From a virus, in the IMG/VR virus record IMGVR_UViG_3300017917_000228, positions 1-25,662 of that record: a DNA stretch of 25,662 nt; one strand, given 5' to 3'. Under the pieces are notes generated by a model. It ran no database searches. It was not told where the DNA came from and saw nothing but the letters and a program-made list of their open reading frames with translations. Positions 2,060-11,471 of this stretch are shown here, one piece after another (within the stretch, counting starts at the first letter, position 1; every line of letters begins with the position of its first letter). The position numbers and the translations under genes are program-made.

Positions 2060-2779
2060 TTACGTATTTAGCAGATAATACTGCTCTACACGTTTCCACC
2101 AGAGCGTGCGGTATTTCTCAAAATTAGCACCTTCTAACACAAATTCTTGGTATTCGGGGGTTGTAAGCACATTGCCCATGTCATCTGTCGCAGGTTTGAC
2201 GCACATTAAAATCACACCTTTTTTGATGTGAGTGCCATGTAATTCATTATGAGCTTCTGCATAGGCACATAACTGTAAGAAATAATCCTCAATCCACTCA
2301 ACTTTTTTGGGTTTGTTGGTTTGCTTGTAGTCTAATATAGCTTCTTCATTTAAATGTATACCTGCGGCATCTGTAGTACCAGCATACACGCTGGGAAAAT
2401 ACAGCGGAACTTCATAGCCCCAAAATTCGTTGACACGGTTATCAAGTCCTTGTTTGATAACAACTTCGGCCATGGCATGGCTGGCCCAGCTAAATGGGTT
2501 AGTACCGCGATCTTTTAGCTCACCATTTTTGACATAGTGTTCTAGGTAGCTGTGCATACGTGTTCCGCGATTGGCAGCTTCTGTGGTAATCTGCTGAGCT
2601 TTTTGTTCGCCTACACGTTTTCTCCATTCTTGTAGGGCTTGTATTTTTTCAGCGGGTTTGGTTTTATCTAAAATAGTTGTCACGCTGGGTAACTTGTTAC
2701 CGTCGGGTGTGGCGTAAAAACGCTTGCCATTTACTTCTACCCTGGGCACTGGGGCATATTCAAATCTTGGATTAAACAT
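2060..2779 (-). CDS. PD-(D/E)XK superfamily exonuclease (RecB/MGME1-like)
   Basis: A 239-aa probable metal-dependent DNA exonuclease. The motifs of the RecB-like PD-(D/E)XK fold appear in order: RGTRMH at 71-76 (motif I His), GTTD with D137, the D150-Y-K152 catalytic pair, and QLCAY at 169-173 (QxxxY motif). It lacks the four-cysteine Fe-S cluster of Cas4/AddB relatives, having only C171 and C193, so it is not an obvious client of the Fe-S genes upstream. Its ATG overlaps the end of the dCMP deaminase by 8 bases, implying co-translation as the last gene of the iscU cassette. Likely roles are recombination, degradation of host DNA or end-processing during replication. The superfamily call is firm; the substrate is unknown. 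Confidence 0.85.
   Translation of the reverse strand: MFNPRFEYAPVPRVEVNGKRFYATPDGNKLPSVTTILDKTKPAEKIQALQEWRKRVGEQKAQQITTEAANRGTRMHSYLEHYVKNGELKDRGTNPFSWASHAMAEVVIKQGLDNRVNEFWGYEVPLYFPSVYAGTTDAAGIHLNEEAILDYKQTNKPKKVEWIEDYFLQLCAYAEAHNELHGTHIKKGVILMCVKPATDDMGNVLTTPEYQEFVLEGANFEKYRTLWWKRVEQYYLLNT
2065..2072 (-). promoter_or_regulatory. weak late-promoter-like box (GCTAAATA)
   Basis: GCTAAATA matches 6 of 8 bases of the T4 late box TATAAATA. Placing it at -13 to -6 puts +1 at 2059 and gives a 14-base leader that opens with CGGAG, then the ATG at 2045. The same variant box occurs before the gene starting at 5553. The match is weak, but the spacing agrees with the exact late boxes in this window. 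Confidence 0.35.
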
Positions 2780-3206
2780 TGTGTTCTATGACTTCTATGT
2801 TGGATTGTTGGAGGAAGCGTATGCCCGAATCATCTCGATAAGCCACGCCATAATGAACACGCTTAATGCCACTTTGATAAATGAGCTTGGCACAGTCCAT
2901 ACAAGGAGCATGAGTAACAAACAAATCAGCACCAAGGCCGCTTTCCGAACTTTTTGCCAGCTTAGCAATTGCATTAGTTTCTGCATGTAATACCTCTGCT
3001 TTGGTAATCAGCGTTTGACCTTCATCTCCATTGGAGACCTCATGTTCGCAGTTGTTGTCCCACCCTGCGGGCATACCGTTGTAGCCAATGCTGATAATTC
3101 TGTCGTCTTTGACCACAATAGCACCAACTTGAAGCCTACGTGCAGAACTCAACTCAGCTGTGCGCCGAGCAATGTCCATAAAATACTTGATAAATTTTGT
3201 TTTCAA
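2772..3206 (-). CDS. deoxycytidylate (dCMP) deaminase
   Basis: Deaminates dCMP to dUMP, feeding thymidylate synthesis during phage replication. The 144-aa protein has the zinc site of the cytidine/deoxycytidylate deaminase family: H75-A-E77, then P101-C102-M-D-C105, with the GYNGMPAGWDN substrate-loop region at 41-51. The length is slightly below that of T4 Cd. The only start that keeps the N-terminal helix (KYFMDIARRTAE) is a TTG at 3206 overlapping the iscA stop as TTGA; the first ATG, at 3179, would remove nine residues of that helix. The start therefore probably depends on translational coupling to iscA. It is the fourth gene of the iscU cassette. Confidence 0.94.
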   Translation of the reverse strand: MKTKFIKYFMDIARRTAELSSARRLQVGAIVVKDDRIISIGYNGMPAGWDNNCEHEVSNGDEGQTLITKAEVLHAETNAIAKLAKSSESGLGADLFVTHAPCMDCAKLIYQSGIKRVHYGVAYRDDSGIRFLQQSNIEVIEHNV

Positions 3207-3523
3207 ATTCTAAATGACTCGCCGCATCCGCAACGGTCCTTTTCGTTAGGGTTAGTAAATTCAAAGCCTTCGTTGAGGCCTTGACGAATATAATCAATTT
3301 GTAGTCCTTGCAGATACGGTTGATCTTTTTTGTTTATTACAACGCTGAATCCATCGTGCAGTTCTGCATCATCTCCGGGTTGTAATTCATCTACATATTC
3401 TAGCACATAAGCCAGGCCCGAGCAACCGGTAGTTCTAACACCTATGCGTATGCCTAGACCACCACCACGACGATCTAAATTTCTTGCTATCTTGCTGGCC
3501 GCTGCTGGTGTAACTGAAATCAT
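3203..3523 (-). CDS. iscA: IscA-type A-type Fe-S carrier protein
   Basis: A 106-aa A-type carrier that accepts Fe-S clusters from IscU-type scaffolds and passes them to apoproteins. The three cluster cysteines are C34 (TTGCSG), C98 and C100 (CGCGESF), the standard HesB/IscA arrangement. Segments such as [19 protein letters not shown] and [12 protein letters not shown] follow E. coli IscA closely, including the C-terminal GESF, which separates it from ErpA (GSSF). The ATG at 3523 overlaps the erpA stop as ATGA. It sits third in the iscU-erpA-iscA cassette. No cysteine desulphurase, HscA/HscB or ferredoxin gene is visible nearby, so it must work with host partners. Confidence 0.95.
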
Positions 3524-3831
3524 ACACTAAAGCTCGATCCGCATCCGCAGGTTGTTTGTGCGTTGGGATTGTTGATAGTAAAACTGCTGCCATGAATGTC
3601 GTCTTTGAAATCAATAGTGGCACCGGCAAGATACTGCATGCTCATTGAATCAACTAGCACACCGTTGACTTCAAAGTCGTCTTCGGCCTGCTCCTCGTCT
3701 AAGGTAAATCCATACTGGAATCCTGAGCAACCGCCGCCTTGCACAAATGCACGGACTTTTAGGTTGGGTTTGTTTTCTTCTGCTAGTATATCGGCAATCT
3801 TGGCCTGTGCTGATTCAGTTATCGTTATCAT
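3520..3831 (-). CDS. erpA: ErpA-type A-type Fe-S carrier protein
   Basis: A 103-aa A-type carrier close to E. coli ErpA, which delivers [4Fe-4S] clusters to enzymes including isoprenoid and radical-SAM enzymes. Cluster ligands are C35 ([11 protein letters not shown]), C95 and C97 (CGCGSSF). The [11 protein letters not shown] and [16 protein letters not shown] stretches are ErpA-like rather than IscA-like. I chose ATG 3831 because it has AAGG six bases upstream, overlaps the iscU stop as ATGA and matches the family N-terminus; an in-frame TTG at 3852 would add seven residues. Its ribosome site lies inside the last codons of iscU, so the two are probably translationally coupled. Confidence 0.93.
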
Positions 3832-4292
3832 AGGGACCTTGTGGTAGTACAACTGTCGCTCCAGAGTTCTGCGGCTTGTTTTTTATAAGCATCAAGTTCT
3901 GGATCTGCTTGTGGCACAGGATTTTTATCCTGATAATCTTTTATTGCAGCTTTTATCGCATCTTCAGCGAGGATACTACAGTGGATCTTAACAGGCGGCA
4001 ACGCGAGTTCCTCAGCAATTTGGCTGTTCTTAATTGTGCCTGCTTCCGCAATTGATTTGCCCTTGACCCATTCGGTAACGAGTGAGGAGCTAGCAATTGC
4101 CGATCCGCAACCGTAAGTTTTGAACTTGGCGTCCGTAATAATCCCATTTTCGACCTTTATTTGTAAACGCATGACATCACCGCATGCTGGTGCACCCACT
4201 GTGCCTGTGCCCACTGAAGGATCAGTGACATCCATTTTTCCTACATTGCGTGGGTTCTCATAATGCTCAATTACTTTTTCTGAATACGCCAT
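3828..4292 (-). CDS. iscU: IscU Fe-S cluster scaffold with C-terminal extension
   Basis: The scaffold on which Fe-S clusters are built from cysteine-desulphurase sulphur and iron. Residues 1-122 parallel E. coli IscU ([18 protein letters not shown] at the start). C37 (GAPACGD with D39), C62 (YGCGSA) and H104-C105 are the assembly ligands. LPPVK at 98-102 is the HscA chaperone recognition motif, so the phage protein should still engage the host HscA/HscB system. The protein is 154 aa against about 128 for the bacterial family: a charged 30-residue tail ([18 protein letters not shown], then an extra cysteine C148) is unusual. The ATG at 4292 has AGGAG eight bases upstream. It is the first gene of the cassette and has its own promoter. 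Confidence 0.97.
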
Positions 4293-7248: not shown

Positions 7249-9129
7249 TTACTCGCCCAAATTGGGGTTGTTTAAAATTCTGTTGCCAGCCGAGAATCCA
7301 AAGCGATTGACCAGTTTAGCCCGGCCTGCATCGGACGCAATGACCCAACCTTCTTGTCCAGGTTGTTGTCGATCCAGTTGGTTTAGCATGTCTGTTTTGA
7401 TTTCGTGCAACAACAAGAACGCAGTAAAGGCCGCTGAGATACCATCTAGATTTGATCTTGGGCTTTGTAAATATTCCACAATATTGTTGTATTTTCTTGG
7501 AGTCACTGACTTTTGTAACCATGGTCCAAAGTCGGCCAACAAATTGTCGTAATTGCTCATAATTCTTGAATTGATATAACGCTTACACAACTGTGGCAAA
7601 TCTGTAATTCCAGCGGCACGCAATTCAGCAGGATTAAAAAGACTGTCTATAGCTGATCCATGCTGTGCTACAACACTGCGTAATTCCTTTTCTAATTTTC
7701 TGCTGGGTGCAACGTTTTTGATATCTTTTACTGTGGGCTCAATTAATAATAATCCTGGATGAGGATCAAATGAGACGTGCTTGATGGGCTCAGCTTCACT
7801 GCCAGGATCTGCATATCGTGTATGTACAGCAATGCCTACTTCTGAATCGCCAATGGCTTGACCCAGCTTGCTTGATGCAGGAATACGATATTCAACAAAA
7901 TTAGGACGGAACACATAAGCGCCAGCTTGTTCTGGTGGAGTTTGAGTATACAATAAATCACCTTGTACATAGCCTCGAAAGTTGGCAGGAGTAGCAGCTT
8001 CTAGCATGGGCCATAGTTTTGTGTAAATGCCAATTAATTCTCCGCGTTCACCTGAACGCATACGTTGAATACGTGCCAGCTGGTCTGGACTAGTTGCTAG
8101 TCCATCGTAGCCCTTGGCTAGGAATCCTGATTTATCTGTTAATACAAATCTGCCGTCGGGCTTGCGACCCCAAATAATTGCAGGCTTGCCATCCCATTTT
8201 ACAGTGGTAGTAGCAGCAGTGTTTTCAGCAGCTGAAGTAATAATTGCCAAGGCTTCTTTTACACCACGTGTGCCACGTTCAAACACTAGATCTTCCAAGT
8301 GTTCAATTCTAGCAGCAGCTTCTGTTAATTGTTGACTTTCAAAAATAGGTGTCATTCCTTGATTTACAATTCTATCACGCAAACGTGCTAAAAAGTTGAC
8401 TTCAGTATAGCCTGTTGGTGGTGGCAATTCCATGCCTTCCATAAAAGGTACACCTTCACGTGCAAAATGCTCACGTGCATCTTTTAATTTTTCATCTTTT
8501 TGAGGATCTTTTTCTAGAGCTCGAACAATAGATTCTACACTGTATAAATCTTCTCGTGTGGCTTGTTTGTTTAATAATATTTTTGCTATAGCATCAGGAT
8601 CATTTGAAATGATTTCATTTGTGGCACGATCTTGCAAGCCAGCTGTTTGATTTAATTTATAGCCCATGCTTTTGGCAATTGAATTCATTAGCACATTGCG
8701 ATCCTGACCTTTATAGTTAGAATCTGCTGGAGCTGATAGGATGAATTTACTAAATGGAACATCCTTTAAAAACATAAAGTCTGTTTGTACATAACCTTTT
8801 GAAGGATTTCCGTTAATGGGTGTTTTAAAGTGTACTGAAATTCCTGATTTACGAATATATTCTTCGGGCTTTAATCCATTTAATTGTGCCCATTGTGTTA
8901 ATTGGGCTACCATTTGTTCTTTGGTGAATTGATTGGCGTCTACAGCTAGATCCAAATCGCCTGATGTAGGCTTACGACCAGTTGAACCCAGAGTGTTGTC
9001 CTGTAGATCCATACCAGTTAATTGTTCCAACCAAGCAATGGTCGATTTAACATCTGTTTGATTGATGCGTTGTGTTAATGCACGACCTGACGCATCTTTA
9101 AAGATGTTGCCGCCTTCATTTAAATTCAT
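7249..9129 (-). CDS. fusion of pol-beta-type nucleotidyltransferase and KxDG ligase-like module
   Basis: A 626-aa protein of undescribed activity. Residues ~46-120 hold a nucleotidyltransferase core: GST (48-50), G57-D58-L-D60 and a third acidic residue in QTDFMF (D117), the GS...DxD...D pattern of the pol-beta superfamily. Residues ~275-610 resemble a covalent nucleotidyltransferase (DNA/RNA ligase): VKWDGKPAIIWG with K311-x-D313-G314 as motif I, GYVQGDLLY near 387-394, and EGWVI (593-597) with AKLV (604-607) as candidate motifs IV and V. Similar proteins occur, from memory, as uncharacterised proteins of T4-like phages (possibly DUF6267). The pairing suggests nucleic-acid end repair, perhaps of RNA. 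The ATG at 9129 overlaps the upstream stop by one base (TAATG). Boundaries are firm; the enzymatic reading is inference. Confidence 0.8.
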   Translation of the reverse strand: MNLNEGGNIFKDASGRALTQRINQTDVKSTIAWLEQLTGMDLQDNTLGSTGRKPTSGDLDLAVDANQFTKEQMVAQLTQWAQLNGLKPEEYIRKSGISVHFKTPINGNPSKGYVQTDFMFLKDVPFSKFILSAPADSNYKGQDRNVLMNSIAKSMGYKLNQTAGLQDRATNEIISNDPDAIAKILLNKQATREDLYSVESIVRALEKDPQKDEKLKDAREHFAREGVPFMEGMELPPPTGYTEVNFLARLRDRIVNQGMTPIFESQQLTEAAARIEHLEDLVFERGTRGVKEALAIITSAAENTAATTTVKWDGKPAIIWGRKPDGRFVLTDKSGFLAKGYDGLATSPDQLARIQRMRSGERGELIGIYTKLWPMLEAATPANFRGYVQGDLLYTQTPPEQAGAYVFRPNFVEYRIPASSKLGQAIGDSEVGIAVHTRYADPGSEAEPIKHVSFDPHPGLLLIEPTVKDIKNVAPSRKLEKELRSVVAQHGSAIDSLFNPAELRAAGITDLPQLCKRYINSRIMSNYDNLLADFGPWLQKSVTPRKYNNIVEYLQSPRSNLDGISAAFTAFLLLHEIKTDMLNQLDRQQPGQEGWVIASDAGRAKLVNRFGFSAGNRILNNPNLGE

Positions 9130-10076
9130 TATAGGCCCAGGGCCTTTCTTAATTGATCGGCCACAGCAGGATCAGCTTTGACAGCTGCCTGTAACTGTGC
9201 TAGTTTTGTTGCGTCAATACCAGCTTGTTGTAGTACAGAATCAGCTGTTGCGGCTTGGCCAGCGCCAGTGGGTTTAACTCGATCATACAACTTGTTTAAT
9301 GTATTGATATAGGGAGGACGGGTTTCTTCTGTAGGACTGTTGTTGTTGTAATCAAACCATTTTCCGGCCTTGTCTTTAATCCAAATTTTGCCTTGGTATC
9401 CACGAACACCATCAAGATTTTTCCACTGTGGATCAGCAGGCAAATATTCTATTTTTTGTTGTGGCTGTGGTGTTAATTGTGCTTGTGCATTGGGCACAGC
9501 TTTGGCTAACTCTTGATCTAAAAAGCCTTGAAAACTTGGTTCGGGCACTGTGCCAGACTGTTGATCCGCCCACTGGCCATTGTCATTGATGATATAGGTC
9601 CTGTTGCGGAACTGTAACACAGCAGGATCAGGGTTGATCACTTTGACCATTAACTGCCCAGCACCAGACTCTACGTCAGTAGCGGATGTTGCTGCTTGTT
9701 GTACCAGCTTGGGAAACAAGCCAGTTATAGCCGCAGGATTGTCAGCTTGATCTGTCATGGCATCAATCAACTGAGTTATTTCTTGACGATTGATAGCATT
9801 GGCAATGGGTTGCCCTTTTAGCAAATTCTTTTGTACAAATGACATCAATGATTGTTTGTAAAGCTGTGCATATCTAGTAGGATCAGGATTGGCTGCTTTT
9901 AATTGTTTGGCGTAGGTTGTCCAGGCTTTGACCGCACGGTCAGCAACATTTTGTATGCCCGCTTGTGTGGTACGATCTTGCTTGGACTGTTGATATCCTT
10001 GTACAGCACCTTTAATGCCTTGTAATATACCTGCTTCATCCAGCAGTTGACGTTGTGTTAGCTCATGAATTTGCAT
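9129..10076 (-). CDS. hypothetical Gln-rich phage protein, 315 aa
   Basis: Function not recognised. The start MQIHELTQRQLLDEAGI is a short amphipathic head of a kind seen in several T4-like phage proteins. The middle is rich in Gln, Ala and Pro (QAQLTPQPQQKIEYLPADPQ) with one compact region around KIWIKDKAGKWFDYNN. There are no cysteines, membrane segments or enzyme motifs. It overlaps the 82-aa gene upstream by 14 bases and the nucleotidyltransferase-ligase gene downstream by one base, so the three form one translation unit. A partner role for the downstream enzyme, or a minor virion role, is possible from position only. Confidence 0.75.
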   Translation of the reverse strand: MQIHELTQRQLLDEAGILQGIKGAVQGYQQSKQDRTTQAGIQNVADRAVKAWTTYAKQLKAANPDPTRYAQLYKQSLMSFVQKNLLKGQPIANAINRQEITQLIDAMTDQADNPAAITGLFPKLVQQAATSATDVESGAGQLMVKVINPDPAVLQFRNRTYIINDNGQWADQQSGTVPEPSFQGFLDQELAKAVPNAQAQLTPQPQQKIEYLPADPQWKNLDGVRGYQGKIWIKDKAGKWFDYNNNSPTEETRPPYINTLNKLYDRVKPTGAGQAATADSVLQQAGIDATKLAQLQAAVKADPAVADQLRKALGL

Positions 10077-10311
10077 CTGTTTTTCTCACTGTTCTTGTAA
10101 ATTTACCAGGGTCTTTGAGCTTGATGGCATTCAACAACTTACGTGTGAGATTTTCAGCTTGCTCTGGTGTGTATGTTTCTTCTATAGATTCCAGCAAGCG
10201 TATGGCTGATGCAATAACGTTTGAAGCACGATTTTCAATGACATGGCGCTGATCACGCTCAATATACATTGAATCCAATTCTTCTAAAAGACTACGAGTT
10301 TTCTTTTGCAT
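10063..10311 (-). CDS. small helical hypothetical protein, 82 aa
   Basis: Function not recognised. The protein is almost wholly helical and highly charged (KKTRSLLEELDSMYIERDQR; YTPEQAENLTRKLLNAIKLK) and has no cysteines or membrane segment. It is first in a three-gene unit, with its 3' end overlapping the next gene by 14 bases. The ATG at 10311 has AAAAGG about 10 bases upstream, at the predicted 5' end of a transcript from the AATAAATA box. A small regulatory or assembly partner is plausible; nothing more can be said. Confidence 0.72.
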   Translation of the reverse strand: MQKKTRSLLEELDSMYIERDQRHVIENRASNVIASAIRLLESIEETYTPEQAENLTRKLLNAIKLKDPGKFTRTVRKTDANS

Positions 10312-10331: not shown

Positions 10332-10339
10332 TATTTATT
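10332..10339 (-). promoter_or_regulatory. probable late promoter box (AATAAATA)
   Basis: Seven of eight bases of the late box, overlapping the stop of the radical-SAM gene. Predicted +1 at 10326 gives a 15-base leader starting AAAAGG before the ATG at 10311. A TATAAT immediately upstream has no good -35, so I favour the late reading. Confidence 0.45.
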
Positions 10340-11471
10340 ATAGATATCTAGAATAAAAATTAGCTACTTCTGAAAAGGTTTTTTTCCAATCTTGATTTCT
10401 GATTTGATCAAACTGTTCAGTTTTTGCAATAAATTCTCGGATTTGGGTTGGATTTTCTTTCCAGTTGGAACTGATAAATTGAAACATGCGAGTGTCCTTT
10501 ATTGCATCAACATATTCTTGTGTAATATTATTTACATTAAGATAGTTATGATTGGCCAATTGTGTGGTATGATCAACTGTGTCACCAAAACGATTTGTAT
10601 TAAAATTGGCTCGTATCCAATTTTCAACTTCTCCAAAATATAATAAATTTAAATTGCTTGTACATTCTTGTACAAAGAACATTACATTTCCGGGCAATTT
10701 TTCCCGCAAATTAAAAATGTTGTCAACTACTTGATTCCAGTTGCCGGGCCAACGCAGATAATCAAAGCGATCGTGTGTGCCATCAATGCTGATCATTAAT
10801 TTAACCAATCTAAATTTTTCTATTAATTTGTAGTATTTTTCATCAATGGGTTGTGTGCCATTGGTCTGAAATCCCAATAGAATTTTATCTTTGGCATTGG
10901 GCACTAAATCTGCAATTAATTCAGCAGTTTTCCAATAACTTGTACCCATCAGTGTTTCACCACCGCAAAACTGAACCTGTTCCAAATTACTCAAATCCAA
11001 TGTTTCAAGAATATTTTTAATTATATTAAAATTGTCATTGACAGTCAAAGTAAAATTATTGCTTTTTAATAAATTATTGTCTCGAAGATGCTTTTCCCAA
11101 TATGTGCTACTATTTGCGTCGCAGGTCCTACAGGCCAAATTACAACTACGGTCGAATAATAAATCTATACGTTTTGGGCCTGATAATTCTTTTTCAGTAC
11201 CAAACGCTTCAATCATTGATTGGCGGAAACTTTTAAGCCCAACTGCTTCAACATGTTGACATTGCCAGCACCCATCTAACCAAATATTTTCATTGTTTGT
11301 TTTTCTAATATTTTGCAATGAAATATCCTGCCACAACTGTCCTGGGTCCCGAAGCACTGACAGTTTAGTAGTACTTAAACAACATTGATTGTAGGTCAAT
11401 GTGTTGGTTTGAGCCTTTAAATTGATATTGAGGCCACCGTGGATCATTGGACAATGTATGTTTTTAGTCAT
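10338..11471 (-). CDS. radical SAM enzyme with extra N-terminal cysteines
   Basis: A 377-aa radical S-adenosylmethionine enzyme. The [4Fe-4S] site is C110-x3-C114-x2-C117 (CNLACRTC), followed by the SAM-binding GGE motif (FCGGETLMG, 169-176) and strands expected of the partial TIM barrel (LGFQTNGTQ, LMISIDGTHDRFDYLR). Five cysteines before the core (C7, C30, C31, C68, C71) suggest an auxiliary Fe-S cluster, here in the N-terminal part, as in twitch/SPASM-like phage radical-SAM proteins remembered from cyanophages. The reaction is unknown; peptide or nucleotide modification are options. It is the last gene of the SGNH-primase-helicase operon, its ATG overlapping the helicase stop by one base. 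It is the only evident Fe-S client in the window. Confidence 0.9.
   Translation of the reverse strand: MTKNIHCPMIHGGLNINLKAQTNTLTYNQCCLSTTKLSVLRDPGQLWQDISLQNIRKTNNENIWLDGCWQCQHVEAVGLKSFRQSMIEAFGTEKELSGPKRIDLLFDRSCNLACRTCDANSSTYWEKHLRDNNLLKSNNFTLTVNDNFNIIKNILETLDLSNLEQVQFCGGETLMGTSYWKTAELIADLVPNAKDKILLGFQTNGTQPIDEKYYKLIEKFRLVKLMISIDGTHDRFDYLRWPGNWNQVVDNIFNLREKLPGNVMFFVQECTSNLNLLYFGEVENWIRANFNTNRFGDTVDHTTQLANHNYLNVNNITQEYVDAIKDTRMFQFISSNWKENPTQIREFIAKTEQFDQIRNQDWKKTFSEVANFYSRYL

Follow-up and report, generated by a model that had tools for sequence, protein, structure and literature searches.

A phage protein that joins a family X polymerase-like domain to a DUF6267 ligase-like domain, a candidate single-chain fill-and-seal repair enzyme

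A polymerase and a ligase are carried on a single chain by bacterial LigD, which acts in break repair. In Phaeocystis globosa virus, PgVPolX is a fusion of PolX with an NAD ligase and fills and seals gaps (PMC5537341), and in jumbo phages a pairing of the nucleotidyltransferase RlaP with the RNA ligases Rnl1 and Rnl2 has been proposed (PMC7824862). Here, we describe a gene from an uncultured large phage (IMG/VR record IMGVR_UViG_3300017917_000228) whose product unites, in one chain, a domain resembling family X DNA polymerases with a ligase-like domain, Pfam DUF6267 (PF19782), and which may serve as a fill-and-seal repair enzyme. The whole 25.7-kb stretch that was analysed (25,662 nt) is referred to below as the window.

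The open reading frame (ORF) occupies 7249-9129 of the minus strand, on which all features given below for the window also lie. It starts with ATG and encodes 626 residues, and its reading as a polymerase X-like domain fused to DUF6267 was drawn from the ORF list, Pfam and a full-length model (predicted local distance difference test, pLDDT, 82; predicted template modelling score, pTM, 0.52). The initial annotation had described a pol-beta-type nucleotidyltransferase and a ligase-like KxDG module in one protein; its motifs were all found in place, with K311 and K605 correctly numbered. In the first domain, GSTG starts at residue 48 and GDLD covers residues 57-60, so that the segment of residues 48-60, GSTGRKPTSGDLD (8950-8988), contains the nucleotide-binding GS motif and the first two catalytic aspartates, D58 and D60; the third, D117, is in QTDF (residues 115-118, 8776-8787). 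In the second domain, ligase motif I is KWDG (residues 311-314, 8188-8199) with the predicted nucleotidylated lysine K311, followed by a motif III-like QGDLL (residues 389-393, 7951-7965; D391), motif IV EGWV (residues 593-596, 7342-7353; E593) and motif V AKLV (residues 604-607, 7309-7320; K605).

The main alignment comprised 67 full-length relatives with 55-93% identity to the window protein, and at least 595 relatives were found in IMG/VR. D117, R144, K311, D313, G314, D391, Y414, E593, G594, K605 and R609 were invariant (67/67), including the lysine on whose conservation the initial annotation had depended, while D58 and D60 were each kept in 66 of the 67 and S49 in 62. The first domain therefore has the GS motif and three catalytic aspartates of a family X DNA polymerase, and the second has conserved motifs I (KxDG), III, IV (EG) and V (K) in that order, as in the covalent nucleotidyltransferase/ligase superfamily. 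The signatures K(W/Y)DG, GD, PN..Y, EG(W/Y/F)V and K(L/I)V.R were retained in DUF6267 sequences down to 21-26% identity. Two relatives (L100:1591-3474 and L125:6001-7962) showed an in-frame stop inside the matched region, by sequencing error, a split gene or recoding.

A Pfam scan of the 626-residue protein made no assignment in the first 270 residues. In the model, however, residues 4-199 resemble a family X DNA polymerase: the 50 VIA matches listed were all Pol beta, lambda, mu or TdT, the best being Pol beta 142-335 (Z 11.0, root-mean-square deviation, rmsd, 3.2, 161 residues aligned), and the Foldseek probability was 1.0. Because this match extends to Pol beta residue 335, the thumb is included along with the palm, and weak DNA_pol_B_thumb profile matches recur among relatives. 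The predicted model thus supports a first domain (residues 1-230, 8440-9129) that is specifically like family X DNA polymerases, with palm and thumb; on structure comparison there was no region before the palm to hold an 8-kDa lyase domain. No Pfam family X palm profile matched above its cut-off and the thumb matches were sub-threshold only, and we therefore call the domain family X-like and not a member by profile. Membership of RlaP (PF10127) was tried and rejected, neither the window nor any of the 46 relatives scanned giving a match even with E allowed up to 1; the jumbo phage Atu_ph07 has a separate RlaP gene elsewhere in its genome.

A low-confidence linker (residues 231-270, 8320-8439; pLDDT <50 over most of 232-273) leads to the second domain (residues 275-616, 7282-8307). 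This, judged by its profile match (121.8 bits against a curated cut-off of 27, E=5.8e-35), is the whole of DUF6267, which refines the earlier KxDG module. Pfam labels DUF6267 a family of unknown function, and no mention of it was found in the literature searched. When DUF6267 was predicted alone from 62 diverse sequences (pLDDT 92.9, pTM 0.87), a ligase fold was obtained in which, as is usual for ligases, motif I comes after the first strand and motifs IV and V occupy neighbouring strands. Motif order and secondary structure are compatible with one pocket shared by K311, EGWV and K605. All 50 VIA matches listed for residues 268-626 were nucleic-acid ligases with RNA ligases ranked first: Naegleria RNA ligase headed them (Z 8.5, rmsd 3.8, 181 aligned), followed by T4 Rnl1 (Z 7.3), Trl1 (7.1) and T4 Rnl2, and by DNA ligases at Z 6-7. 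Its predicted fold and its motifs make the second domain a probable nucleic-acid ligase. The folds predicted for the two halves were thus a family X polymerase-like one and a ligase one, not unrelated ones. Phage records with DUF6267 number 462, of which 449 are from cyanophages, and many hundreds of environmental contigs also contain it. When cellular genomes were scanned, the fused protein had no match; DUF6267 alone turned up in 35 contigs, probably of phage sequence and for the most part from marine metagenome bins.

The two domains were also found to be coupled in genomes. These scans took the best 80 loci by similarity, and the frequencies describe those samples. With the polymerase-like domain alone as query, 75 of the 80 loci held DUF6267, in the same ORF in 14 and downstream on the same strand in 61; in 57 of these 61 it was within 154 nt of the polymerase-like gene, mostly with overlapping stop and start codons. 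In the tree of the polymerase-like domain the window falls in a well-supported clade of 19 fused rows. At least five changes between fusion and splitting are required, two of them forced by well-supported branches; judged from this tree, fusion or splitting has happened more than once. The arrangement is strong evidence that the two domains function as a pair. Three cultured jumbo phages, Phosso, Atu_ph07 and PA5oct, have the polymerase-like homologue as a standalone gene (26-30% identity) and encode a different KxDG...EG(V/Y)V...K protein nearby, its similarity to DUF6267 being weak (hhalign probability 12). In divergent phages, the gene adjoins replicative helicase genes. A HIGH-motif nucleotidylyltransferase ORF took the place of the polymerase-like domain in 50 of the best 80 marine DUF6267 loci, and all three domains share a single ORF in three contigs (L275:3817-6006, L276:2078-5359 and L306:5944-9756), the HIGH domain of L276 being confirmed by NCBIfam CoaD/NMNAT-type matches.

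From the motifs, conservation, predicted folds and genomic coupling of the two domains, we infer the catalysis, order of steps, substrate and cofactor of the fused protein. The family X-type polymerase or nucleotidyltransferase would add nucleotides to a 3′ end within a gap or break, and DUF6267 would then seal the strand in the manner usual for ligases, a nucleotide passing onto K311 and from there onto the 5′ phosphate before joining to the 3′ OH. We regard it as moderately probable that the protein is a single-chain repair enzyme which fills and seals, supplementing the phage's ordinary ligase, with DNA a somewhat likelier substrate than RNA. The family X fold, the helicase neighbourhood and the PgVPolX precedent are the reasons for which DNA gap filling and sealing is favoured, and this role is at least as well supported as the tRNA or other RNA substrate of the initial annotation. 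That annotation had also proposed a single-chain end-healing and sealing enzyme, which the polymerase-like and ligase-like domains in one chain support in part; 'end-healing' is only partly apt because the 626-residue protein has no kinase or phosphatase domain.

Replication was considered as another use of the ligase. A PF01068 DNA ligase is also encoded in six of the seven large contigs with the polymerase-like domain and in PA5oct, and NAD-type ligases are present in Phosso and Atu_ph07. On the strength of the six contigs, DUF6267 of the fused type was rejected as the replicative DNA ligase, and with an ordinary ligase usually present, an accessory role in repair is the likelier one for the fused protein. 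S-RIM14, S-PM2, HTVC008M and two marine contigs gave no match to any of three known ligase families, and in them DUF6267 is possibly the replicative ligase; with the three ligase profiles tried, no other ligase-like protein was found in the cyanophages and the pelagiphage tested.

Several results weigh against a DNA fill-and-seal enzyme built on a DUF6267 ligase. The VIA Z of 8.5 is modest, the best Foldseek matches of DUF6267 were DNA ligases with E-values that were not significant, and searches of the PDB by sequence and with profiles gave a meaningful match for neither family. The polymerase-like domain was absent within the flanks from all 80 of the best marine loci, so DUF6267 does not always need it. 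The ranking of RNA ligases above DNA ligases speaks, mildly, against DNA. This ranking also favours the strongest of the other explanations, in which the polymerase-like domain would restore lost nucleotides and DUF6267 would rejoin RNA, such as tRNA, that host defences have cut. RNA repair of this kind is kept in consideration by the RNA-ligase-like fold and by the RlaP precedent; the partner protein of Atu_ph07 also matches Pfam RNA_ligase weakly (E=0.002), and most fusion-bearing phages tested already encode a DNA ligase. However, palm and thumb of the first domain form a DNA polymerase arrangement without an RlaP profile match, and DNA ligases follow closely in structural score, and we hold RNA repair to be possible but rather unlikely.

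The fill-and-seal enzyme might also be packaged in the phage head and injected with the genome, filling and sealing breaks in the incoming DNA (or cut host RNA) before phage genes are expressed. In T4, residues 4 and 7 are the main determinants of capsid targeting and residues 8 and 10 those of processing (PMC9026906), and just six N-terminal residues are removed from T4 Alt (PMC5694885). T4-like capsid-targeting N-termini (MQSFKQYLSEAR, MYSFKQYLNEAK) were common, at predicted starts, in standalone marine DUF6267 proteins: 24 of 73 distinct ones had the pattern against 28 of 597 other ORFs of the same loci (Fisher p=8e-12, an optimistic value since relatives are non-independent). The fused protein, in contrast, has only MNLNE before GGN (residues 1-5, 9115-9129), conceivably a short prohead-protease propeptide; this start, M-x-hydrophobic-x-E before GGN, had L, I or V as the hydrophobic residue, two before E, in 125 of 126 distinct relatives (predicted starts). 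Upstream, a conserved 82-residue neighbour (10063-10311), shared with Phosso, Atu_ph07 and PA5oct, carries a virion-protein annotation (PHROG 11854, virion structural protein), and the record of the PA5oct homologue of the polymerase-like domain annotates it as detected by electrospray ionisation tandem mass spectrometry (ESI-MS/MS). Cytidylyltransferases with such N-termini are published virion proteins of S-CREM2 and S-SZBM1 (PMC10665884, PMC9146016). The N-terminal sequences and the published virion proteomes of neighbours are a hint of head packaging. Against it, the S-SZBM1 DUF6267 protein gp141, which lacks the targeting pattern, is absent from the published virion list, and we consider packaging rather doubtful. 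If true, marine and freshwater phages would have in DUF6267 a ligase family delivered with the virion, a repair kit at entry. Two published virion proteins, S-CREM2 gp160 and S-SZBM1 gp139, were tried as DUF6267 and found not to be. A further published virion protein, S-CREM2 gp156 (L315:6513-7226; PMC10665884), is a Pol-beta-superfamily nucleotidyltransferase (PF01909, E=3e-4) without a match to the window's domain.

The same resemblance of N-termini and neighbour genes to head-packaged proteins, together with the frequent position of DUF6267 beside a HIGH-type nucleotidylyltransferase instead of a polymerase, would suit a host-takeover effector, one or both domains transferring nucleotides to a host protein or small molecule. 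Such a modifying enzyme seems improbable, as ligase motifs I, III, IV and V are all retained together, which protein modification does not need, and the partner domain is specifically family X-like. Capping enzymes are also found among KxDG enzymes, but a capping-type nucleotidyltransferase in place of a ligase is most improbable, with ligases making up all 50 VIA matches listed (families outside the listing are possible) and a family X partner having no evident role in RNA capping.

Other genes were noted around the locus. The upstream neighbour at 9129-10076, known from the ORF list and relatives' loci, encodes 315 residues of unassigned function with a conserved MQIHE(L/I)T N-terminus. A radical SAM gene (10338-11471) sits between a helicase gene and the conserved 82-residue gene, with homologues in 46 of 151 related loci. 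A gene cassette for Fe-S cluster assembly, made up of a NifU_N/IscU-type scaffold and two A-type carriers (PF01521), lies at 2772-4292 beside a dCMP deaminase gene. Downstream of the ligase-like/polymerase-like pair of Atu_ph07, three paralogous genes (L083:5579-8195) appeared ADP-ribosyltransferase-like by eye and have MRWHQL/MKWHQL-type N-termini; the two that were scanned had no supporting Pfam match.

Returning to the fill-and-seal enzyme, its arrangement can be set against the known systems. Bacterial LigD likewise has a polymerase and a ligase in one chain, but its polymerase belongs to the primase type (archaeo-eukaryotic primase, AEP) and is joined to a standard ATP-dependent DNA ligase. 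T4 Pnkp and Rnl1 also repair broken strands in a phage with KxDG ligation as the last step, whereas they are two separate proteins and the window protein lacks a kinase or phosphatase domain. In the RlaP-Rnl1/Rnl2 pairing, a Pol beta-superfamily nucleotidyltransferase is genomically associated with a KxDG ligase, as here; the window domain differs in being family X-like, often fused and without an RlaP profile match. The DUF6267 proteins of cyanophages and pelagiphages share the ligase-like domain and its motifs but have no polymerase-like domain; a HIGH-type nucleotidylyltransferase is often fused to them or encoded alongside. With its pairing in other phages to a family X-like polymerase, DUF6267 as a ligase fold gains a testable function. 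PgVPolX is alike in combining polymerase X and ligase in one chain; it has 1093 residues, an 8-kDa lyase domain and a clear NAD+-dependent DNA ligase, whereas the phage protein has 626 residues and DUF6267, and in it neither an 8-kDa region before the palm nor a Pfam ligase profile match was found. The two fusions are likely convergent, and the protein described here adds a bacteriophage counterpart to the polymerase-ligase fusion of a giant algal virus.
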